From the NCBI GenBank assembly GCA_021234155.1, contig JAJEKV010000064.1:4402001-4466000 (forward strand): DNA of 64,000 nt, given 5' to 3'. Every line of letters begins with the position of its first letter. The stretch's first letter is position 1. Shown piece after piece: positions 6,823 through 41,413 of the stretch. The DNA is from Isoetes taiwanensis (Eukaryota > Streptophyta > Lycopodiopsida > Isoetales > Isoetaceae). The notes under the pieces were generated by a model. That model saw only the letters and a program-made list of their open reading frames with translations. It searched no databases and had not been told where the DNA came from. Position numbers and translations under genes: made by a program.

Positions 6823-8400
6823 TTACTGGAAGTGCTTATGAAATGCATCCAAGTAAAGCTTGCAGGTTTCAACCATGGCCTTGTCCCCAACGATAAATAT
6901 TGGCTTCATTCCAAACAACGTTGTTCCTTGAGAGAACAACCTATTTATATACCAACAATCTCCTTCTCTTCGACCAATCATATGATAAAATACTTGATAA
7001 CCCTCATGCGCTTCAAACTCCTCTTTCTTGATAGCTCCTTCAGCCAAGTATTCAAGAACAACACTTTTGTTGGCATCATTCAAAATTCAGATCTCTTGGC
7101 ACATGTTGTATCTTCCAAGTTTTGAAGCTTGCCAAAGGCCTGATTTCTTAGTAAAATTGTATCTTCATTCTTAGCTTGGTATTCTCCCAAGATCGGCCTG
7201 CAAACAAGCTGGAAGTCCCCAAAAACTACAACGTTAGTGATGCCAATATGTTTGGATACTTGTAAACCTGCAATCAAAGCTTTGTACTCAGTCATGTTTG
7301 AAGTTGTGTTGCGATAGATCCTGCCAACCTTTGCTAATAATTTGCTAAAACGGTCCTTGATTATGGTAGCAGAAGAAGCAATACTTAACCTCTTTGAGAT
7401 TCCTCCATCAAACCATAGATAGACAAAGGTCTTTTCATGCATGGGAACCTCATTTGGTCTGACTGTGGCAACAAGTTCATACTCTCCAAAGAAATTTGGG
7501 ATCAAAGGATCTTCCTCTAGAAAGTTGAGCAAGAATCTCCCATTTTGTTGTATAATGTCACCAAATCTTACCATCTAAAACTGTACGCTCTCCCTTTGAA
7601 CAAATAGGCCTTGCATCAAAAAGTTGACATCATCTCCTACTGAAGAGCAAGTTAAATATGTTTGATTTCTCATCTGCATTACCAAAAAACACAACAACGA
7701 AGTTAGCAGCAACAACAATGTCTTCAATGTCAATTGACACATTATTTATGATGCATATAGGGTTAATCTTTGAATTGAAGAAGGATTTAGGTGTCATCTT
7801 ATCAACTTCTAACACACACAACTTCATAATGTGATGTGGCATTATATTGAGAGGTGATCCCCTATCTAGTAGCACTTCTGTCAAGTTTTTCTTAACAATC
7901 TTTATGTGCAAGTAGAGGCATCAAGGTCTTGTTCTTGAGCCAAGTAAGACCTTTACTCATCAATATGATTGGCAAATGCTACCTACTCCTTCTTGGTTAG
8001 ATTGATCACTTTGTCCCTATAAGAAGGACAGTTTTGAGAAGTGTTAGCAAGTCTACACACACCTTAGAACTTCTCAACCCTAAGGTGGCACAACCTGGTT
8101 GACCTCATGCTTTGATCCTCTAAGACCTGCATAAGTCTGCATAAATCTCACTAATGCACTTGGTTCAACTACCTTATCTTGTCTTGCTTTGCAAAATACT
8201 CTTTGACACTACATCTATCTTCACGGTGACCTGTGGCCTTAACAAAACATTTTCTTTCCATAGTGGACTCTTTTACCACATTTAATGCATGGCATGTACT
8301 AGTATATATCAGAGGAATGAGTGTTTCTTGAGCAATGAGCACATGGGAGATAAGTTCTTCTTTTTGGCCTAGCAACCTTCATTTCTAGAAGCTGTTTGGC
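6823..8400 (-). pseudogene. Decayed Ty3-type retrotransposon: capsid knuckle, protease, RNase H remnants
   Basis: Read on the minus strand from right to left. 8375-8169 has a Cys/His motif like a degenerate gag zinc knuckle (CFVKATGHREDRC). 7911-7630 has a retropepsin-like block (LLDRGSPLNIMP, where the family usually has D-x-G-S-x-N). 7574-7080 has an RNase H-like segment with NMTEYKALIAGLQ and GDFQLV, where a catalytic Asp-Ser is usual. The reverse transcriptase expected between protease and RNase H is missing, so the element has a large internal deletion. Frames are broken between segments. The RNase H form resembles the long-element (Tat/Athila-like) branch, but I cannot assign a lineage. 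No LTRs were identified. Confidence 0.65.
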
Positions 8401-8630
8401 GATCTATTTTAAGGCATCAGAGGCCTTAGAGATCTCTGCCTTTACATCAGCCACAAGACTGCCAGATTCTTCTATTTTTGGCCCTTACTTCTCCTTTTGA
8501 ATGAGATAAACTGGTATGGACCAAGCCCCATGTATTCTTTCTCATAATTGGATAGAAAATATCATTAGGAGCGTGCAAGATAGGACTATCTGGACGCCCA
8601 CCTTATTGGCTCCCTAAATTGACTAGAGAA

Positions 8631-8700
8631 GCCAAGGAGGATTCACTCAAATGAATCCTCAAGGTTCACACTAGCGAATCCTCCTTGGCTTGGAGGATTC
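8631..8700. repeat. Palindromic GGATTC cluster, left part
   Basis: GCCAAGGAGGATTC (8631-8644) and its perfect reverse complement (8676-8689) flank two further GGATTC/GAATCC pairs. The chromovirus inserted immediately to the right, and the same type of palindrome continues at 19,881-20,075. The two parts were one repeat cluster before the insertion. Confidence 0.75.
8696..8700. repeat. Left target-site duplication of the chromovirus (gattc)
   Basis: Five bases identical to 19,881-19,885 directly flank the outer ends of the two LTRs. A 5-bp duplication is the usual product of Ty3-type integrase. Confidence 0.85.
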
Positions 8701-8809
8701 TGTCATGAACCTACGCGAAAACAAGGAAAATACGTGGAAAATACGGAAGAAACATGCCAAGATCGGGAAAGAATCTGATATATGAACAGGAATCAAGAGT
8801 ACAATGGCC
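8701..8809 (-). repeat. 3' LTR of the chromovirus, distal part
   Basis: Matches the right LTR from its first base (tgtcatgaacctacgcg) to about acaatggcc, with a few substitutions and an indel. The match breaks where the LINE tail begins and resumes near 14,389. Confidence 0.85.
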
Positions 8810-9932
8810 TAAAGGAAGGAAGGAAGGAAGGAAGGTACTTTTATCGTCCACGGAGACCAATCGGTCTATGGGACCCAATACAAGAACGCGACAAAGCGGA
8901 TTATCGCGGATTAAAAACCCCCCCAGAAGGGTTTTGAGGAAAAACCATGGGCGCAATCGGCCTGGCCGACAAACTAACATACAAAATGCGAGAAACACCC
9001 AAATATATACAGATCATGCACCGCACCGATGCCTAATCGGCAGCGGCCATGCGCGGGGCAAAGGTGACCTCGCAGTCCAACCCTCTCGAATGTACGACCC
9101 GGGCACGCGTCTTGGCGGTGTGTTCATCGGCAAATGTAAGGGCAAGTCCGGCCGCACTAAGGGGCGTGTCGCCCCGGATCGGACCAGTATTTGGGCAACT
9201 CCGGAAAGTGTGAGACTCATCCTCAATGGCACCCGTTTTGACAAAGATCGACAGAGAGCACGTCCCGGGGGGGCTCCCCAATCCACCGCCTGCCTCGATG
9301 CGAAGATGGTGGGCACCGTGCGAATGGAGGCAATGAGTCTGCGCTTTTCAGGGCGGTACCGGGAACGCATAAGTAGAGCTGTGGGCCCGGGGCTAACGAG
9401 GGGGTTGATGTGCTCCTTGTAATGGGCCATTTGACTGCTCTAGAGCCGGGGTCCCGAGCTTGCCAAGGAAACAAGCTGCCTAGGTACTCCCTTGGCTGTC
9501 CCACGATCGGGCCATGCGGTCCACTGCATGCATCCGTGCTCTCGCCGTTCCATCTGGCGAACCCGATCTCTCTTACCCCTCCAACGGGCCCTAAGCATTT
9601 GCGGACTCATTGCCACGCGGTGTAAGCCCGGTGCGCGGAGCCGAGCATCACCCATAGTAACCACTTTTCGAAAATAGGCGATGTGTCTATCAAAGGGCTG
9701 CCACCGGCGGCAAGAATCGATTTCTGCAGCAGAGAATCGATAGGGAACTGAAGGTTTCACCCAAGTGCCCGTGCCAAAATGCCTTCACGCACCTGCTCCA
9801 AGTCGTTCCATGTCGCCAAAGAGACGCCAGGGCCCCAAACCTCGACCCCGTCTGAGGAAGGGCCAGGCTCGACCGGTGCCGGGCAGATGTGACCGATGGC
9901 CCCAATCATAGAGCTCTGCCGGGCGACTGTTG

Positions 9933-12589
9933 TTACGCATGGCATAAAGCGCTTTCCCGACTTTGTGGCGCCTCCCGCCAGAGCGAGGAGGGGAACTCCA
10001 CCCCTAGATACTTGTAGGTGGGCGTGGCGTCCACGGTGCATCCCCCGATATGTGAGTGCGGGGAGGCATGGGGTGGCGTGAAGAGGATATGAGAACCACC
10101 ACGGTCTTGGCGATTCACAGCGCATGTGCGTAGCGACAAAATGTGTCTAGGGCATCCGGGTGAGGCCGCATAGCCGGGGTGTGGGGGCAATGAGCCAACA
10201 TCGTCCGCATAGATGAGTGGCGGATGACACGGGTGCAAAAGGCGTATGCCATCTCCCCATGCTCGATAAGCCGGGGCTCTAGCCCGATCAATGTAGAGGC
10301 CAAAAGTGTTGGCGAGAGGGGCAACCTGCCGGACCCCGATACTACTAGTGAATGCTTGGCCCGTCGGGCGATCCCCGCCAAAACAACTCTCATACAACTT
10401 GTATATGGCATTACGCACGAGGCGCTGGGAGCCCCGATTGGCGCTGATCTAGCCCACGGCTTTTTCGGGGGGAACCAGTATCAAAAGCCTTCGAAGTCCA
10501 CAAAGCGGCAATACAAGTCTGCCGATGATTCCGGCTGTCTTCAATCGATGCCCGCAGGTGTGAAGATATGGTCAATCGTTGAGTGGCGGGGTCTAAAGCC
10601 CCGCCTGTGTGAGGGTTTCGCACATCTGGCCGCCTCCGCCCGGGGTCAATTCTTTGCTTCGAGAATGCCGACCAACGGTTTGGCAAAAATCTTGAGCTAA
10701 CCATGATCGTCCGGTAATTGGCCGGACAGTGTGGGTCGCCCGCCTTTGAATGGGAACAACCCTGCTTGTGGTCTATTGTCGGGGGAGACCTTCCTGCAAT
10801 GCTCGTTGAAGCAGGGGTAGTGAGGACCGGCACAAGCGGGGCCGCCTCGCCCATTTGAGTAACTTCGGCCGCATACCATCGAGGGTGTTTGCCTTCCCAT
10901 TAGCCGGCCGTTGCGGGGCCCTCCTCAACATCCTCCTCCACGAGAACCAATGGGGGGCCATCCTGTGGGGGTATGGGCGTACGCGTCCCTGGCGGGTCAT
11001 AGAGCTGCTGCAAGTCTTCGTTCCCATTTGCCGTGTGTGATGTCCCCCGTAGGGCCGGATCGGCCTTCAAAGCACTCGCGCCAAAAGGTTCGAGGATGAG
11101 TGTCCAACAGGCGAACATCTCCCCCCGATGCACGGCAAGGTACCGCCTTTGTCTCCCTTCCGGATGGGGCAGTGATGCGTGATGGCTCGCAAGCGGGTGG
11201 CGGATCCGGATCGTGATGTGAGCCGCCGCTATGCGTTCTTTACACTCGCGATCAAACCATCGGGGCTTGGGAATGTTGTCGACCCCGAAGCGGCGACGGG
11301 TCTGGGGGCAAAACGTCCCACCGATCCCGTAATAGCGAAGTCACCTGGTCTGCTGGCACGCTTCTAGTGTGGAGGTCCGCGGAAATTACCGGGAGGGCAT
11401 CCATGAGCATCTCTACAGTAGTCCCTCGCACGCTCATAATCTAGTCTCAACCGAGGACGGCGAGGGTCGGCATAGTGGGGGGTTCCGGGCGCTTGTCAAA
11501 CCAAGTCCAAATAAAGTGGGAGGTGATCCGAGTCGACCTCTTCATCCCGTCGCCGTGCCCACCCGGAAACGACCGGACGAGATGCATATCTTCGCGCAAC
11601 CACTGAGCACATAGTCCACCACACTAGACCCTCCCCCGATTGTCCCTGTCTGCATGTGCACTTGCGAGAATCGCCCTTTGCGGACAGCCATTGCAAATTA
11701 TCAAGTCAAAAAATACCACATAGCAGGAGCAACTGTCACAAAGCGAAAGTGACTGGCCGTCATCCGATCCTCGTGGCGAGGTTGCTTTCGGGCGAGCTGC
11801 AGGACATCGTCGGCGAGGGGGTCAAGTCGCATGGGTTGCTCTACTCCTGTCCAGGTGCATTGAAGTCTCCAAGAAGGACGACCCTACCCAACCGGGCTGT
11901 GCTGTCTTTGTATGTCATCATATAGATCGACATAAGGGTCCATCCTATCCGCATCGGGGTGGGCTGCGATAGAAGGTGCTCTCTCTGAGGGAAATAACAG
12001 CGCCGAGAAAAAGAGGGTTGCCATCGGTATTATGCACACGAACCCACAAGTACCGGTTGTGTAATGCAATGCGCCTTCCGGAGGGTAACCGAATGTGCCA
12101 AGGTTGTCCCAGTAGTAGCAAGCCACTCCACCATGACCCCTCTGTCTGTGCATGCGGTATTGAAGACCGAAATGTTGGTAACCCGGCGGATCGTAGCTCA
12201 GGCTCAAAGATGCTCCCATGTTCCATGAGAAAGATGAGATCCATATCGGCCGCCACGGAGTTCAGACCGCCCCTTACGCCAAGGGAAGCCTCGACAATTC
12301 CATGAGACCACCCGGAGGCACAATTCCTATTTGTCGCCAGGGGATGGTATGCGCACCGAGTCCGGGGGGAGGAGGAAGCGCAGGTCGAAAGTGAGAAGTA
12401 GATGGAGCGGAGGCAAAGATGTGGTCGAGAGGGCATGGGTCGTGGAGGGAGCGGGGAGTAGGAGCAGGAGAAGGGGGGCCCGTGGTAGGAGAAGCGAAGC
12501 AGGGGCCACGGCAGCCGGCGGTTGGGGGTCGCGGGTCCGCAGCAGCAGCAGCGTGTTTGTCGGGAAAATGTGCATCCCCGCCGAACCAA
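9933..12589 (-). pseudogene. LINE ORF2 remnant: endonuclease and reverse transcriptase
   Basis: On minus, fragments from about 12,330 down carry an endonuclease-like start (MDLIFLMEHGSIFEPELRSA) and its end motif DSDHLPL near 11,510. RT blocks follow: PANYRTIM near 10,710, a SKAFDT palm motif near 10,480, GVRQVAPLANTFGLYID near 10,330 (usually RQG-PL), PLIYADDVG near 10,200 (the catalytic YADD box is intact), and PTYKYLGVEF near 9990. Successive blocks lie in different frames with stops between them, so the reading frame has taken many small indels. Long open frames on the other strand in this region are by-products of the high G+C content. Confidence 0.75.
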
Positions 12590-13299
12590 CCTGCGGCACC
12601 CCGGTGGCTAATGCCTCTCGACCTCGACAAGCCCCGTCTGCGTGCCTCGCTGCACCGGGTGTGAGATCCGTCCACGCATGGGGATGTCCCCTTCAAAGAC
12701 CGCCCCGGCGCTAATATGGCATCACGCACTGCATCCACAACCGTGAATATGACAATGCGGTCACGCGGCACCGAGCCCCATGACTCCGCTGCTCGAGAAA
12801 TGTGAACTGCCCGGGAATGTCATCCGATCGAGAATGTGTGTTCGAATGTTGTGGGCGGGCGACTCTCCCCCGCTTTGTTCGCATGCCTCGAACTACAGGT
12901 GGGCCTCTCGCTGCGCTTCCCCGAGTTCTCGGCTTATGAAGTCAAAGGTGGGCGAGGGCCGGTCCCGTCGGGGGGTGGTGGTGGTGGCTGGGATGGCGTG
13001 GAGTGGCGGAGGCTTGCGGGCAGCAGTCTGGGCTGGGCTGCGCCGGCGCGAGGCCGCGGGCGGGGTAGCGGTCCGAGCCGCTCGGCCTTTGTGAAGTCGG
13101 GAGTACAGCTCTTGCGTGGTCTGCCGCCGCTTGGCCATCTCCGCCCGTGACCGCCGCACCTGACTATGAACCTCGGGAGGGAGACCACAGCTCGTCTATG
13201 GATGGTTGCCCGCAACCCCGGAGCTCCGGGCTCACGAGTAGCGAGGCGTGCTTTCGAGCCCCAAGACACCGGCGTCGAGGGCGGGCTTGCTGTTCGATC

Positions 13300-13851
13300 T
13301 TACTCACGAAGATCCCGGCGTAATACGGCATGTGCAAGAGCAGCCTGCGCTTCCCGTGCCATGGTGGTGGCTGCCTCCACCTCTGACTGAAGCCGAGACA
13401 CCGTGACCATCGTCTCCTGCATTGCGCGCTCCCTCTCCTGTGTCATGGTGTCCAGAGTGATGAACACAGAGTCTAGGCGGGCCCGCATGTCAGCGACCTC
13501 TGCACGCTTTGTTGCATTTCGAAGTGTGCCAAGCCAAGGCCATCTTCCACATGCGTCGTCGCGGGTCTCCGGACTGTGATGCGGTTCTTCTCGACCCCAT
13601 TTGCCTTTTTGAGCACATGGGATGCGAGGACTCCATCTCCTTGTCATGCCGGCCCGGCGAACGCTGTTAGCCTCAATACGAGCATTGTTAGCCTCCACTC
13701 TCGCTTTGACATGGCTCCAATTCTCTGCAGAGGCAGGAATTCCTATGTGGTCTGAGCAATCAATCCCTTCCGGCCGGGCTGGCCTCGCTGAGGGGGCCTT
13801 CGCCTTAGCCCGAGCCTCCTTCTTCATGGAGGATGACTCTCCCCTGTCCAT
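13300..13851 (-). pseudogene. LINE ORF1-like coiled-coil protein
   Basis: A 183-codon open frame with a basic, Lys/Ala-rich N terminus. Its C-terminal half has heptad-like charged and hydrophobic spacing (MRARLDSVFITLDTMTQERE and onward), which predicts a coiled coil. It lies just upstream, on minus, of the proline-rich and endonuclease segments, where a LINE ORF1 is expected. I see no RNA-binding zinc knuckle. The frame may be a fragment of a longer, frameshifted ORF1. Confidence 0.5.
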
Positions 13852-13932
13852 GATGGCTGATCGGGACCGTTCAAGGGCTGCCCCCTCGCCTTAGGTTTCC
13901 CAGGCTGGCCCATCTTCTGTGGCCATGACTTT

Positions 13933-14252
13933 CAAAGTTTGAGGGGTCTCTGGCTGCGGAAAGGGTGCTTAGAATCCAATTTGGGGACTCAAAAACGCGG
14001 GCAGAGCACCTTTTGGGGGTGTGGGGGTCTTGGGGGTTCCAAAGTTTGAGGGGTCTCTGGCTGCCTAAAGGGTGCTTAGAATCCAATTTGGGGACTCAGA
14101 AAGGCGGGCAGAGCACCTTTTGGGGGTTTGGAGGTTTTGGGGTGCCAAAGTTTAATGGGTCTCTGGCTGCCTAAAGGGTGCTTAGAATTCAATTTGGGGA
14201 CTCAAGAAGCGGGCAGAGCACCTTTTGGGGGTTTGGGGGTTTTGGGTCTAGA
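13933..14252 (-). repeat. Three tandem ~107-bp monomers at the LINE 5' end
   Basis: Units start at 13,933, 14,040 and 14,146. Each begins caaagttt, contains gggtctctggctgc and ggtgcttagaatycaattt, and ends with gagcaccttttgggggt plus a G-rich tail. The copies are about 90% identical by eye. They lie upstream of the ORF1-like frame, as promoter monomers do in some LINEs. Confidence 0.85.
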
Positions 14253-32420: not shown

Positions 32421-35400
32421 CACCACACTAATAGAGTATGGAGGCCACGACCGGGGGGGGTGTTATAATTTCTCTAATGCTCATTTAAACTTAGGACAAT
32501 GGTGGAATCGAATGTAGCACATTAAAATGTTGACGTTGAACCATGTTTCCTGGAATTGCCAATCAGACTAGCAAAGAAATTAATGCAAGTGCCCCAGTAG
32601 CATGCTGATTATGGTAGCTGCTGAGACAAAATATAGTGTGAGAGAATACAGTGTTCGCATTGGAGGTTATATTCTAGTATCTTTAAGCACATTCCTTCAT
32701 TGTAATAATTCTAAAATATTTGAGGAGATCTTGTATAGGTGACATTGGTGCATGGCAAAGGATAGAGTGGTAGTGCAGTTGCAAGTAGTCTTCAAGGTTA
32801 TATAGTTTCTCAACAATATATGTGTTGACATCTAATTGTTGGTCTTAATTATGAGGGTTTCATGCTTTTGCAGCCTTTTAAATCAGGTGATATTTCCAGC
32901 TATTGTCAACAAAAATCACATTCACATTTCATATTAGTTCTTTTTTCTTGTTGGTAATTAAATTGTTGTAATAAATAAACCATTGTTGATTACTATTGTT
33001 GCTTGTCCTTGCATTATGGCTATGTTCAATTCAAAATAGATGTTTGTCTACTACATCTTCCGAAAGGCCCCTATAGATATGTTCACACAATTCTCAAGTC
33101 CCCGAAGGGGCCAAAAAAATTTAAGATTAACACAAACCATTGCATCCAACACTTTCACCAAAATCCCTCAGAAACCCCTTTTGTTTTGGGTGCATATTCA
33201 CATGAGAGGTGATGTTGGGCAGCGAGAGTCCTTTCTGTATTCCCTAAAATCGTACAATAAATCAACACCTTTTAGTCCATTGCCTCAAACCTTATAGAAT
33301 TTCACAAACCTCGTTATACGGTTTCTTGTACAAGCATATTCCATAAACGAGGATTGATATCTATAGTCTAGATCGAGGAATAACTAGCAAATATGCCCAT
33401 CCAATAGCTCGATGACCGGAGTCACCTCTTATGTGAATATACACCAAATCAAAGAAGCTTGAGGGAGATTTTGATTTGAAAGCATTGGATGTAATAAAAA
33501 ACCTAATAAACTATAAAACTATAAGCAACGGTTAAAACAGTCGCTATAGTAGGAGCGATCAAAATTATCAACAACATCAAAAGATGGACGGATCCGGAAG
33601 TTGGTCGAAAGGCCTGGCTATAGGCCGAATAAGTAGGTAGTCAAATTTAAACTAAAGGAAACCTAATTGACCTAAAAGGCAAAGCCTTTCCAAAAGCTAT
33701 GAACATTGTACGAACTTTCCAATTCCAAAAGTATGGATGGAGAAGCTAGTGAAAAGCTTGTTTCGTAAAGTTCAATTGCCAATTAGAAAGTCACGTCTTG
33801 TTTGAGCCTTATTCCTGCATTTTTGAATATCCCAAAGAAGTTATTCAGTTGGATTAATAGATTCTCAGAATTGGAAAGAATTAGAGATCGTGTTTGCAGC
33901 ATTCGCAAGTCTGAGCGTAGTTGGGTGGTGAATTTGTGCCATAAGACGTGTTTGACAATTTTGGAGAAAGAAGAGCACAATCATAACAGACTTCCATTTG
34001 CAATCCATTGACATAGTTTCACAAGAGTTCACTGATATTGTTGATATGGGAATCCAGATGAGTAAACTTCAAATTGTAATCAGGTACCATTTCATATTCT
34101 TCTTGTTTTACTTGATCCCATTCCTTCTACATAATTCTATAATAATTTACATATAAATGATTCGCTTCAAAAGCATTTTCGAACTCAGATCATAGTTTCA
34201 GATACCTTAATGCGCTCGAAGAACTTCTCCCATTCCAACAAACAGATAGCTTGTATTGGTTTCACACCCATGCCTCCATTGAAATAAGGCATATCTATTT
34301 TTTCTCACCTTAAGCTTGTGTTTCGGTTTGGGTTGACGTTTTGGATCCATTGTTGACTAGTTTGTGTAGTAGATACACAGGACCTAAAAAGTCATTTGCA
34401 CAATCCATATTTCTTGGGCGTAAGAAGTCATTCTCACAAACCATATCTCTTGGAGCTATTTACAGCATCTACTAGAACAACCGGATGATCTTGATCAAGA
34501 GGTGGGAGAGAAATTATTGGGGGAGCATATTTGATAGTGGAGGGGCAAAGGATTTATTGTATTAAATGTCAAAATTGGACTATGCTAATGTCTATTTGTG
34601 CAAGATTTGGCAAGGAATTATATGCTATTGCCATACCTTTTCTCATTTAATTCATTCAAGTTTATACCTTTCTGCATGTGCCTTTCCCTTGCCTGAGCTT
34701 CCACTTTTTACTCATACAAATAGTGCGAGGTATTATTTTCACATTAGTTTTATTATACTATACAAGAATTTGGCGCCGGCGGAGCCGGCGCTCTGTGCAC
34801 CCTTGACGACTGAACCTAAGTTCGATGGTTAAATTTAAGAGTAAATATCAACGGTCTGTAATCTGGCTCGGCATAAAAGATAAGCACAGTGAACTTAGCT
34901 TAATCTTCTAGCCTTCCTCGAACCTTGGTCCTCCTCTTTGGGTAACCAAGGTATGTATTTGTCTGTACATCGATTTGGATAAGTATAGTCCTCGTGAAAG
35001 AGAAAGTATTTGTTGTTAAGGGCTAATATTTGGGTAGTGGTTGTGTGTTGTGTAATGCATGTGGTGGTGGTAATGTGGTGTGCGTATTGTAATACATATG
35101 TAGTGGAACGGTGTGTTTTAGTATAGTGCATGTATGATGTGTGATGTGTGTAGTATAGTGTTTGTAATGCATGGGTAGTTGTGAGTTATTGGGGGTAGCT
35201 ATACGGTTGGGTTTAAGTTGTCTTAGCCATGCATTTGGCAAATTTTATTCTTCAATTCCGGCATCATCAATTTCTTTAACTCTTCCGTTTTGACACCTCA
35301 GGACAATTGAGATAAAATTTCCCTTATCGTAAACCACGAGTACCCTATGATTTCCGCTTTTTTTCCTGTGTTTTTATTTTTTGGAAATTTTTTCGTTTCC

Positions 35401-35656
35401 TACTCTAAGCGGCGCCGCTCATACTTTAATTTCCTACACTACCAAATTCAAACATTCAAAGGTTTTCGCATTCAAAGGTTTTCCATTCAAATTCAAAGGT
35501 TTTAAAACAGTACATTCAAAGGTTTTCCATTCAAAGGTTTTAAAACAGTACATCAAAATCATCACAACAGCTGAATTTGAATCAAGTAGCAAAAGCTGAA
35601 TCAAGTTTCAAAAAGCTGAATCAAGTTTGAATCAAGTTTCAAAAGCTGAATTTCCA
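32421..35656. other. No supported gene; simple sequence and palindromes
   Basis: AT-rich, with only short open frames. It contains a GT-rich tract at 35,035-35,165, a GC-rich palindrome at 34,773-34,791 (gcgccggc, 3 nt, gccggcgc), and a perfect 12-bp palindrome at 35,408-35,419 (agcggcgccgct). Near the recombinase 3' end, ttcaaaggtttt repeats at 35,455-35,545 and aagctgaatcaagttt-type repeats at 35,590-35,655. These last may belong to the recombinase element's 3' region. Confidence 0.5.
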
Positions 35657-37938
35657 TCAAGCAGCATTTTTCTTCATGTATTCGGCATCTGATGCAAGAA
35701 CAAATGTGCAATTATTGAATGTTGCACCCACAAATGACTGGCCACCTGCATAAACAAAAACTAGGTTATTTTGATCAATTTGAAAACATGTTCCAAATCA
35801 GAATAAAAATTAACAATAATGAGAAAACTTACCATAGTTTTGCACAATAGTCTGTTCTCCAGGAAAGTATTTTGCTAGCGAAGGTGTGCGTCTGATCATT
35901 TCTTCAAGCATGTCGTTATCAAAATCATCAGCAGTAACTGGTTTTACAGTATTTCCTGAAACTTGAATTACAGACTTATTGGCGCCAGTTTTTAAATCAA
36001 CAGGAACTTTGACAGGAGCTGTAAGGTAATCATCTGTTGGAGCAGCAACATTGTCTGCAAGAAACCAACTACAAATTAACATTTGGAAAACTACTAATGA
36101 TTTAAAAAAGGTACTAAAGGTTTCCAAAATTTACCTGTAATCGTAGTATGATCATGAACATCAGCAACGTTATCCGTAAGAAAAAACCTAGCCAAAATTA
36201 CATAGGAAAGTGAAACTAGGAAACTGAAACTAAGAAACTACTAGGAAACTGAAACTAGGAAAACAAACTAGGAAAATAAACTAACCTGCAATTGAAGTTT
36301 GACCGTCAACCAGAACCTTTGAAGAATGGTTTCCCATTAAGCCCTTCTCCTTCTCTTTAATCATTTCATTTAAAACATCAGGATACAACCTTAGACTACC
36401 ATCCTCATTGTAAGGTTTGCTCAAAATATTCATCGCAGCATTAACTTGGATTTCCTTGCTCCGGTCGTACCTATTAGAACACAAAATTACAACTGCATGA
36501 AAGGAAACAGACAAACAAATAAATAAATAAAAACTTACTTTTCGTATGCAGTCGTCGTCCTATGACCTGTTACAAGCTTTCCAATTTCTGGTGGAACTAG
36601 ACCAAGCGACATTCTTGTAACAGCAGATACACGTCCACTTTTATTACAAATGTCAACGTCCAACAAAGACCCCATGTATGTTATCCACTTGGCAAGATTG
36701 TTTTTTCCTACTCGAGATTTCTGAAACCAGACCTGCAAGAGAGTAAACAATTAAAAACAAAATAATAAACAATGCATAGGAAAAAGGAAAACCAACGTAC
36801 CTGACCGCGAAAGTTCGTAATCGCCTGACAGAAAAACCACTTTGGTTTATCATTTTCTTTTCCAGGTAAATGACGAGTATACTGTTTATATGTTAACACA
36901 AAGTCATTCTCAAAGCTCCATATTGGTGGTCTGAAATGGCTATCATCAAACCGGGTCACAGAAATCCCCCACGTCTTACTTTTTCTCTCATTATACAGCA
37001 GATATTCATTGCTGCCATCAAATTCCAAACTCAAGTCTACATCCTTCACATCATAAAGTTCCTGAGCACCTCTGATAGCAAATCTACTGACCAAATAAAA
37101 GCACAGTCGCTTCAAAATCCCTTTTGGATGTGTGATCTGATAATCTATATCAGCCAATAAATCCTGCTCTGTGCTATAAGAAATTGGCTGTGCTTTCTTT
37201 TTCTTTACACCAATACCTAAAGCTCTAGCTTTTGATGCCATGTGAACAAATGCTAATCTAGTAGTACCAAACAGATCATCTTTCAGAATGTTAAATCTTG
37301 CCTCCCTTTCTCCAGTAGCATTAATTCTTGCTTCTTGCTTTTTCCTGATAATCCTTCCTATTGACTTCAGTAAGCAATGCAGACTACAACAGAAAACAGT
37401 AAGTCAGAAACAATCAAGAAATAGAAATAAAAGAAATCAAAAGAATTTACCTGGAGGCAGGGTATAGAGTGCCGTCTTTCTTTCTAGTTTGTAAAAGAAA
37501 TTTAACAAGCATCTTATTCAACTCGAGCATGTTGAGATCTTCAAGTGGCATACTTGTGTCAAGTTTCTCAAACCTTCTCCATCCATCAAACTTACGTCTA
37601 GCCCAGTTGGTAAGTTTCTTGGACTTGTCTTCGCCCCCCTTTTCAATTTCAGAGACAGTTTTCTCATCAAGCTTCAAAAACTCCTTAAACTCTTCATCAT
37701 TTGGTGCCTTAAGATCATCAGTGTACACTGTCCCCTCTTTAAACCATGGCTCATTTCCAAGATCTTGCAACATCAACTCGACTGCAGCAGGATCCGTGCA
37801 TCCAACAAGCTCACAGTCTTCTTCATTTATGAGTGTAAACGAAGGACTGATACTAGCAGAGCAGTTAGAAACTGCATGTCCAGAAAGTAAACTCAAGCTA
37901 AGTAGAACACTAATAAACCTTTTAGCAACAAGAGACAT
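35657..37938 (-). CDS. Crypton-type tyrosine recombinase (DUF3504-like), six coding exons
   Basis: Exons on minus: 37,938-37,451; 37,383-36,801; 36,732-36,539; 36,470-36,286; 36,054-35,833; 35,745-35,657. All have GT-AG borders, and the frame is continuous for 587 codons including the stop. Residues about 100-230 form the N-terminal, helix-rich core-binding part (LNKMLVKFLLQTRKKDGTLY, ARFNILKDDLFG). The catalytic domain has Arg267 (SRFAIRGAQELYD), a candidate beta-hairpin Lys297/299, Lys388-x-x-Arg391, His414 (LVTGHRTTT) and Tyr423 exactly nine residues after the His. This is the tyrosine recombinase constellation, with Lys in place of the box II His. The C terminus (FVGATFNNCTFV) resembles the ends of animal Crypton-like proteins. 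Such enzymes cut and rejoin DNA through a Tyr-DNA link. A domesticated host gene is the main alternative. The N terminus looks like a signal peptide, which is odd for a nuclear enzyme. Confidence 0.82.
36135..36173 (-). pseudogene. Disabled extra exon of the recombinase gene
   Basis: On minus, 39 nt (DNVADVHDHTTIT) end at a proper GT donor. They resemble the start of the next exon (DNVAAPTDDYLT). The upstream splice acceptor lacks AG (ttacgg where the paralogous exon has ttgcag). Length and phase would keep the frame. It is probably a duplicated exon lost to splicing. Confidence 0.5.
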
Positions 37939-38559: not shown

Positions 38560-38580
38560 GTTTGCCACGTGTCCGGAAAT
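38560..38580. promoter_or_regulatory. G-box (gccacgtgtcc)
   Basis: A CACGTG core near 38,568, with other ACGT-containing words nearby (tgacgtgg, acgcgtgg). Such boxes bind plant bZIP and bHLH factors. It lies between the duplicated leader and the hairpin. The link to the recombinase gene is inference. Confidence 0.3.
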
Positions 38581-38610
38581 CATAGGGCACGCGTGGCTTA
38601 CGTTTTGCAA

Positions 38611-38710
38611 CGTGCCACCAATCGGTGGTTTCCAGTTGGAAATCGGGTGGCGGCGCCGCCACTCGCGCCGCCACCCGGTTTCCAGCTGGAAACCACCTCT
38701 TGGTGGCACG
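38611..38710. repeat. Strong hairpin: 45-bp inverted repeat, 10-nt loop
   Basis: Arms at 38,611-38,655 and 38,666-38,710 match at 41 of 45 positions. Each arm itself contains small palindromes (ccaccaatcggtgg; ggtttccagctggaaacc). It is GC-rich, unlike its surroundings, and lies about 670 bp upstream of the recombinase ATG. It could be a terminal structure of the element, a foldback element or a source of small RNA. Confidence 0.9.
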
Positions 38711-38714
38711 TTAC

Positions 38715-41413
38715 CAAATACTAAGAATCAAGATTGCGCGATTAGCGCCAAGCTTAGAGCTCAAGGCTAAAAGGTTAACTTAGGTGAAAACGGGACTCAA
38801 GCTGCAAATGGGATGTCAGAATCATCAGATTGGACCTCTAAACGGCGTACAAAGCATAAAGTCGAAGCTGATAGTTGCAAATTGGGCATCAGAGCCATCA
38901 AATTGGACCTCTGCACCCGATTTTATCCCATAGATCTTAAAATCAATCTCTGACCTTTGTTCTGTTTAATGGGTCTCCAAACTGAAGAGATTATTTGTAA
39001 GATTTAGCCCAAGCTTGTGTTGGAACAAAACCCACTGTTGGTTCGTGGCCTAGATTCAAATACGGGAGCTCTGTAAAAACCCAAAGCCCTGATCATAGAC
39101 CGGAGATTTTTTTCTCGGTCCAAGGCTGCCATTAATCTATCAATTTTGAGTACTGAGTTTACCAAACTAATTATAAGCTATATTTAAAATCACGGCTCCT
39201 ATTAACGTTAGTGAAGAGAATCATACCTGGGTGGTCAGTCTTGCTCTCATGGAATTAACAATTCCTCTCCAGCAATCAACGGGAGAGCCTAATACCTGCG
39301 CCGAAAAATTTTTAAACCAAGGCCTTCGCTGAATTTTTTAGGATTGCAATCAAAACTGTCAGAAATAAGGTGTTTGGCAATTTATCGCGGACTTTCTGGA
39401 AGAAGCACAAGAAATAAACATGGTTGGCAATTTCTTGCACAAACGAATTCATGCCTGGTGCAGACTTACCTAGGGATTGCATGGCTGTTTTCTATGCCAC
39501 CATGTAGCAAATTTCACAGATTTGTATGCCTCTTTACTGCCCTAAATCACCCCGGTGCTATTGCGTTGAAGGGCAACTGTAGAATAATCTGCCTTAAAGC
39601 AACAGGAGTTCGTCAGCAGAGCTGTCGGGTCTTCGGTAGGCCTCGATTGCTTCAATCAATTTCTCTTGAATAGGGCTTCGTATGAAGTTTTTATCTTGAA
39701 TAGCGCTTGGTATGAAGCGTTTGAGAGTGAAGAAATATAAGCCTATAAATCTTAATAGAATGAAGAATCAAAGATTTGCGGCCTATTGCCGAGCTTTGCA
39801 CGGCTGTCCATGCTCAAAAGAAGCAATGAAAAACACAGACAATTTGTGCTTCCTGCATGCATAAGTTGGAGTAAATTGAATCCTGATTCCGACGGCCCTG
39901 CTTTTAAAGAGCCCTCAATATTTGAACTGGGTTTCGAAATTTGACAAATAGATTTTTGAGCATATATTTCTGTGTCTTATCATTCTCAGAGATTGCAGTT
40001 CCAGGGCACAAAATTTCTTTGCTGCGTTATCCAAATTAAGCCTCTTGAAAGCTAAATTTTTCGCATGGACACAGTCCGTGTGCCTCCGTTGGCTGCAAGT
40101 CATGGTTCCGTCGATTGATACTCGGCCTTGTGATAATACCTGGCCCTGTGATACGCCAGCCCTAACCTGATATTCTGTTTCCCTCTGCAACCCCAATCCA
40201 TAGTTTTCATCTCCGACAGAAGACAGAAACTTGGGCCAAACAAACATAGAAGCAGGAGAGCATAGAATTTGCAACAAATTCGACCTCAGGTTGTAAATTG
40301 ATCCAAAGTAGAGCAAACGAGTCCAAACCGAGCAGTTTTACTATAAAAAATCATTCCCTTTGGGTTGCTTTCAGAAACACACAGAGTACTTCTGCATACA
40401 CTGGGCCAAATCGAGACATCTAAAGGCCCACATGCAAAAACCTCAACCCCCGGAATTAATCTGAATAACCCAACTGGATTCATCTATCTGCTCTTCTACG
40501 GCCTCTCCTGGGGCAGAACTCGAAGCGTACGAGTATTCCCGGAAAACAAAAAGACGCCGGAAAAAGCAGTCCTATATACGTAGATAATTCAAAAAACTAG
40601 TAATCTTATATATAGAAGGATAGTTTATTTCCATTATCAAACAAAATCTCCTCCTTGTCCATTTCTATTGGCTCATTTTTCTGATTTTCGAACTACAATT
40701 TCACCATAAGATGGGTTTTCATTATGAGCTAGCTTTACATTCATCCGATGATGTTCCATACGCCTTTTATTTCCACGTTCTCTCATTTGCTCTCTATCAT
40801 CACAACCACTGTCTATAATAAGCTGCATTTTTCTTTTTTCTATCTTCCATATACTCCAGATATTGTGGAATGGGTGATGTTTGTCTGATCAGATTTCTCC
40901 TGCTCAGGATGAAGTAACTCCTTGATTGCAGACAATCACTGTTTAATTTATACTGTAAGTCTGCAAGTCTCCTATATTGCTGCTCATGCACTGAGTGAGT
41001 CCTTGATAGTAGAAGACAACCACTATTCTATTCTTATGGTGCTCCTTCTAGCGACAATATAGTCAACTTTTAGGTTCTACCCCAATATATTATCATCACT
41101 ATGCTGAACCTATTGTGCAAGGACTAATAAGCCTATTCATGATGCATGAGCTGATTTGCACAAAAAGGATATTTCTGATCTGTTAACTTAGTCCTACAAT
41201 TTGATGTCCTCGATTGCACTTATTAAACTTTTTGTTGAATATTCTTCTTTGGTTTGGACGATTTGTAACTTGCTTGGCCAAGATAAGCGAGACCATATCT
41301 TACATTTACAAAGCACCACTACAGTAATCTAACCACGTGTTCTGCCCGTCACCTTTTTGCATTATTTGTGTATTTAATAGAATTTTCTTTAACACGGTGG
41401 TGTGATATTTCAA
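38715..41413. other. No supported gene between recombinase and CBM48 genes
   Basis: Open frames here are short (up to 133 codons at 39,915-40,316 minus) and carry no recognisable motif. Short duplications occur, such as ttgaatagsgcttsgtatgaag at about 39,665-39,715. 38,780-38,930 holds paired copies of ggacctct-containing sequence. Confidence 0.4.

Follow-up and report, generated by a model that had tools for sequence, protein, structure and literature searches.

A tyrosine-recombinase-like gene of Isoetes taiwanensis lies in a recently active transposon family with ends resembling those of another transposon class

Is an intact tyrosine-recombinase-like gene with introns in a plant nuclear genome the enzyme of a moving element, or a gene that the host has domesticated? 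The question is raised by a 64,000-nucleotide stretch of Isoetes taiwanensis (assembly GCA_021234155.1, contig JAJEKV010000064.1, positions 4,402,001 to 4,466,000, the whole of which is called the window here), in which a first-pass annotation had described a Crypton-type tyrosine recombinase gene and left it as either a live or recently live element or a domesticated gene. The first of these stands in the form of a recently live element, while a lone domesticated gene does not agree with at least 168 stretches of the genome matching the protein. The element belongs to a large transposon family and the gene is most probably the tyrosine-recombinase-like enzyme gene of a recently active transposon. 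What is new here is the ends of the element, as this is a tyrosine-recombinase DNA transposon with ends resembling those of another transposon class. The boundaries of tyrosine-recombinase DNA transposons in eukaryotes have been hard to define (PMC3212892), and for that reason their mechanism remained a proposal.

The window gene lies on the minus strand and its six joined exons run without an internal stop to 586 amino acids and a stop codon, with five introns (67, 68, 68, 231 and 87 nucleotides, nt) which all have GT-AG borders, just as first proposed. The catalytic set of a tyrosine recombinase was likewise found at the predicted places (R267, K388, R391, H414 and Y423, with nine residues from H to Y), and none of R, K-x-x-R, H and Y varies among the seven members of an alignment of the window protein with six of 14 loci, these six being 49-67% identical to the window protein. 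The claim that a plant nuclear genome holds an intact tyrosine-recombinase-like gene with introns is borne out further by two other copies, L004 (95.4% coding identity) and L007 (98.9%), which have kept the exon model with its start, stop, open frame and all five GT-AG borders. When 13 other loci were projected on the window exon model (L013 and L025 being one element), 11 showed stops or lost borders, in some owing to the locus sequence ending early. Comparison of the window gene with L004 gave a synonymous divergence (dS) of 0.149 and a nonsynonymous divergence (dN) of 0.023, a dN/dS of about 0.15, and members of a related family (family C below) gave 0.09-0.11; in comparisons across families synonymous divergence is mostly saturated, with dN at 0.18-0.55. 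This shows that the recombinase protein is under purifying selection.

The copy count that the first-pass annotation had suggested was made in the whole assembly (1,658,258,908 bases in 1110 contigs) and gave the figure of at least 168 above; some of these copies are 95-99% identical to the window in exon 2 and others near 60% and 50%. Eighty of these stretches were taken into the locus analysis, resolving into 70 loci on 52 contigs. The full transposon is 3,394 nt long with a C counted at both ends, and so is larger than the gene span (35657..37938; Table 1). Its limits are sharp, as near-identical copies stop at the same points, at 35328 on the left (eight other copies) and at 38721 on the right, with flanks that are mostly unrelated. 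The repeat is one-sided, being terminal on the left and subterminal on the right, where the inverted copy is followed directly by a terminal hairpin of about 115 nt. A search with the first 28 nt of the left end, at up to 2 mismatches, gave 48 genome matches, a few of them being right-end copies, compared to none for a reversed control. Of the 48, 12 (including 8 of the 13 exact matches) have one of the 80 recombinase stretches within 5 kb, where 0.02 would be expected. Six deletion derivatives of 306-1055 nt have both ends and no recombinase. The recombinase gene was the sole gene recognised in the element, with no reverse transcriptase, DDE or Rep/helicase gene recognised, and seven other open frames in the element or at its edge (73-195 amino acids) had no credible Pfam match.

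Table 1. Features of the transposon and its recombinase-like gene, in positions of the window
Feature	Position	Strand	Basis
Whole transposon	35328..38721	gene on -	left border common to 8 other copies, right border to several, flanks mostly unrelated; empty site C1018:7208711
Left terminal repeat CGTAAACCACGAGTACCCTATGATTTCCG, 29 nt	35328..35356	.	repeat pairing and shared copy borders
Right subterminal repeat, inverted copy of left end	38574..38602	.	26/29 complementary
Right terminal hairpin	38604..38718	.	DNA folding z -12.9; 0/200 shuffles as good
Right end CAAATAC, crossover at or beside last C	38715..38721	.	copy borders and empty sites
Exon 1, with ATG	37451..37938	-	exon join
Exon 2, holds R267	36801..37383	-	exon join and residue mapping
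Exon 3, holds K388, R391, H414	36539..36732	-	exon join and residue mapping
Exon 4, holds Y423	36286..36470	-	exon join and residue mapping
Exon 5	35833..36054	-	exon join
Exon 6, includes stop	35657..35745	-	exon join
Weak QRICH1-like stretch, residues 134-178	exon 1 into exon 2	-	Pfam search

The target side of the insertion was read from empty sites, which were sought with the joined flanks of nine insertions; six of these had candidate empty sites and three had none, and one empty site for L042 (L066) was left out of the alignment. Five of the six insertions were precise, sharing a single base (in most cases C) with the target and duplicating nothing longer. At the window insertion the filled left junction reads CCCTTAT-C-GTAAACC and the filled right junction CCAAATA-C-TAAGAATC, and the empty site (C1018:7208711) reads CCCTTAT-C-TAAAAATC, so that the single C alone is repeated in the filled site. 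L016 has a T at the shared position of its empty site, a T at its left junction and a C at its right junction, and across the clean empty sites and shared-border copies the left junction retains target sequence while the right junction retains the AAATAC of the element. The shared base is C in 15 of 18 left flanks, a set that remained after four subterminal-copy rows were dropped (L044, one of two L052 rows, L056/L062 and L061) and in which L054 and L059 are one insertion. Among 26 right flanks, which include duplicated insertions (L054/L059 and L056/L057/L062), A stands at position +1 in 20 and at +3 in 22, and position +2 holds A or T in 24. The target consensus is C|AWAA, with insertion at one base before an A-rich stretch.

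Three further families in the same genome, B (L029/L030), C (L026/L027) and D (C1035/C1103), are 63%, 64-65% and 51% identical to the window copy, a member of family A, in exon 2, and all four have a common order of a left repeat starting CGTRAACC or CGTAACC, its inverted copy at the right and then a terminal hairpin. The sequences of the ends and hairpins differ among the families and the plan is alike. The inverted-repeat pairing was reached by none of 2000 shuffles in each family, and the folding z scores of the hairpins against shuffles were -12.9 (A), -4.0 (B), -6.6 (C) and -7.8 (D, for 150 nt of the C1103 copy). For the left ends of families A and C folding was at chance level (z -0.1 and -1.4), giving no 5' hairpin. 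The family C repeat has 29 genome matches and none for a control; 24 of the 29 make up 12 head-to-head pairs, with no pair in the other orientation, and five of the six long pairs (3.3-3.8 kb) enclose a recombinase stretch. The left end of a fifth family, E (L031/L032), matches the plan, which was seen at that end only.

The hairpin varies in length between copies (38604-38718 in the window, L036, L041, L093 and L095), the central part of both arms being lost together, and because both arms are shortened at once the stem shrinks and mostly stays paired. An alignment of 24 of 27 family A right ends (L039, L041 and L053 were left out; L037, L040 and L050 yielded none) showed modest covariation, with 94.5% of cells paired and 4 of 27 pairs changed on both sides; that count of double changes was reached by 21 of 500 shuffles and the covariation score by none of 500. 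Part of the covariation comes from L056, L057 and L062, the flanks of which suggest one duplicated insertion, and several mismatches resemble, by eye, CpG decay in old copies. A stronger argument than the covariation within family A comes from comparing the families.

Judged by sequence, the homology of the protein to named recombinases is weak. The window protein gave sub-threshold Pfam matches to DUF3504 (E 0.013, 16 bits against a cut-off of 29.7) and QRICH1 (E 0.025). At E up to 1, DUF3504 was found in four of seven family members (best E 0.0016) and the phrog_1 integrase in five of seven (two below 0.01, best 1.4e-4), the latter covering the K-x-x-R..H..Y stretch, and Pfam Phage_integrase matched one of the seven (E 0.13). 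The profile searches that had been suggested for this gene gave it a DUF3504 match below the cut-off and phrog_1 matches in its relatives, with no recombinase match over the cut-off for the window protein itself. No match to the window protein was found by sequence in PDB, no viral or prokaryotic relative was confirmed in viral_contigs or in prokaryote genomes, and a search of phages with an 89-residue catalytic piece gave no relative. The proposed Crypton/DUF3504 link is weakly supported by sequence, the DUF3504 and QRICH1 matches standing in the right order and below their cut-offs, and the element lacks end features by which Cryptons are described.

The element with these ends, its precise one-base insertion without target duplication, its plan shared among families, its intact copies and its selected protein is probably a recently active DNA transposon which its sole recognised gene, tyrosine-recombinase-like, moves. 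On this reading the recombinase would act as the transposase, would bind the inverted repeats as its likely binding sites and would join the left and right ends (..CCAAATA-C-GTAAACC..; junction CCAAATACGTAAACC) into a circle or a copied strand, and a single crossover at the base shared with the target, usually C, would insert the joined ends. The anatomy of the right end suggests that one strand may be exchanged at or beside the folded hairpin and the outcome settled by replication, as in integrons, where the tyrosine recombinase IntI uses a folded hairpin substrate in an asymmetric reaction settled by replication (PMC4792948, PMC2727003); the comparison with integron cassettes and IntI is one of analogy alone, the use of a single strand here being proposed from anatomy. 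If the exchange were staggered by 6-8 bp and its outcome random, target and element sequence would be mixed at the two junctions, unless repair were biased, and so a one-strand exchange fits better. We tentatively suggest, as one possibility, that this tyrosine-recombinase transposon may move as a folded single strand with the hairpin as substrate, a single-base strand exchange and replication settling the junction, which would be a mechanism of its own between those of Crypton and Helitron, its Helitron2-like ends having evolved independently with another enzyme.

Several results weigh against a recombinase-driven transposon of this kind. PHROGs gave no match for the window protein at E up to 1, comparison by hhalign with lambda Int and with six phage integrases gave nothing significant, the family profile had chance matches alone in PDB (E 1.4 and worse) and NCBIfam gave no integrase. 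Between the window gene and L007 (dS 0.019, dN 0.010) dN/dS is near 0.5, on just 20 changes. In family D the hairpin of the C1035 copy is collapsed (z -1.4), and a single copy each supplies the right end of family B (L030) and the left end of family D (C1035). The sixth empty site (L055/L070) is no clean fit, and the shared base is other than C in 3 of 18 left flanks. Most right ends were retrieved with a pattern that ended in AAATAC and allowed up to 4 edits, a search biased towards that ending, and hence they give no independent support for the right side keeping element sequence. The joined-end (circle junction) sequence was absent from the assembly search.

An ordinary Crypton, excised and inserted as a double-stranded circle via a short overlap with its repeats and hairpin incidental or mere binding sites, would share with the described Cryptons (CryptonF, S, A and I; PMC3212892) a tyrosine recombinase as the sole recognised gene, no reverse transcriptase or DDE gene being recognised here, together with the lack of a long target duplication, the non-autonomous derivatives and the weak DUF3504 similarity, and the one base repeated at both ends could be a minimal overlap; the ordered DUF3504 and QRICH1 matches also agree with this. 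Cryptons are however described without terminal inverted repeats and with direct repeats of 4-6 bp, whereas the element here has long asymmetric inverted repeats (26/29), a terminal hairpin and one shared base, in an end plan that is retained across diverged families. It also has K-x-x-R where that paper gives R-H-R-Y, in a host outside its Table 1, and no DUF3504 match over the cut-off in the window protein, so that we regard an ordinary Crypton as rather unlikely. The ends themselves recall Helitron2, in which asymmetric inverted repeats, the right copy standing directly before a 3' hairpin, go with no target duplication (PMC3627910, PMC5148889), and as in Helitron2/Helentron elements the inverted repeat here is leftmost, with its copy directly before the 3' hairpin, and there is no target duplication. 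This could mean a non-autonomous Helitron2-like element, its ends moved by a Rep/helicase from elsewhere and the recombinase a passenger, for which Helitron2-type elements carrying a Fanzor gene (PMC3627910) are a precedent, and this genome is rich in Helitron Rep genes (1813 candidates, of which 150 were scored and placed). These 150 placed Rep matches have none of the 48 end-motif matches within 20 kb (0.17 expected) and one within 50 kb (0.43 expected), the recombinase is under purifying selection, contrary to a passenger, and the ends vary together with the recombinase across the four families. The element also differs from Helitron2 in having no recognised Rep/helicase and no 5' hairpin, in a larger hairpin and repeats of 27-29 nt, about double the 8-15 there, and in its target of C|AWAA instead of TTTT|T/C (PMC3627910), and a passenger recombinase is accordingly thought improbable.

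That a domesticated host gene only resembles a transposon would agree with the intact frame, conserved introns and purifying selection of the window gene, and the weak matches of the window protein to both Pfam domains, in the right order, recall the DUF3504/QRICH1/ZMYM genes of animals. Those animal genes have lost most catalytic residues (PMC3212892) whereas all are kept here, and the many copies, sharp ends, empty sites and deletion derivatives leave very little likelihood to domestication; for the window locus itself, the empty site at C1018:7208711, the copy number and the ends rule out a lone domesticated gene. Contaminant DNA in the assembly, the refuting case that the first-pass annotation had raised, is the least credible explanation of all and was rejected, since matches lie on at least 52 contigs, the longest of 53 Mb, several insertions are in sequence that is also present without the element, and the same window holds a DUF1191 gene, a Gypsy-type RNase H and a reverse transcriptase of the long interspersed nuclear element (LINE) type. 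We take DUF1191 to be a plant family.

The recombinase-driven transposon preferred here is not claimed as the first plant Crypton. To call such a gene new to plants proved unsafe, because Table 2 of PMC4438587 names Crypton, as a label alone, among the superfamilies present in every group that was studied, and these groups include land plants. Open-licence papers on plant Cryptons or on hairpin-ended recombinase transposons, in the parts of their texts that were available, described no such element.

Further observations concern the copies and their surroundings. A second recombinase lineage (L001, C31:90502-90981; L002, C606:42685-43182) is above the Pfam DUF3504 cut-off and its N-terminal part is long; stops interrupt the match in both copies, the ends of this lineage were not found, and L002 matches the window protein with a tblastn E of 1.3e-5 (22-locus set). 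Two old copies, L009 (C930:2.6 Mb) and L023 (C912:2.44 Mb), have a right flank in common and so that insertion was probably duplicated together with its surroundings, and the common flank of L054, L059 and L060 indicates one non-autonomous insertion that was copied along with a host repeat. On C1033 there are three other right-end matches (3008473, 3026413 and 3044667), spaced by about 18 kb, and L098 has a left end followed by frames that are LINE-like by eye. Seventeen of the 150 Helitron Rep matches listed are in open frames of more than 1000 codons. Families A (at about 35408-35420), B, C and E (L029, L089, L031) have a GGCGCCGC-type palindrome some 80-100 nt inward of the left end, and a similar motif is also present in the hairpins of A, B and D; it is possibly a binding or promoter element. 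Elsewhere in the window, positions 8000-14000 are GC-rich (51-61% compared to about 40%) and have minus-strand frames that resemble a broken LINE by eye, and three pieces of this region that were tried had no Pfam match.

Sharp ends and empty sites are available here in a single genome, together with intact copies, deletion derivatives and four diverged families, and the ends and enzyme are therefore directly testable. The anatomy of the ends suggests an unusual way of moving. If the hairpin is indeed the substrate, two unrelated enzymes would have reached the same end design, and a new type of recombinase system would have been recently active in a plant.
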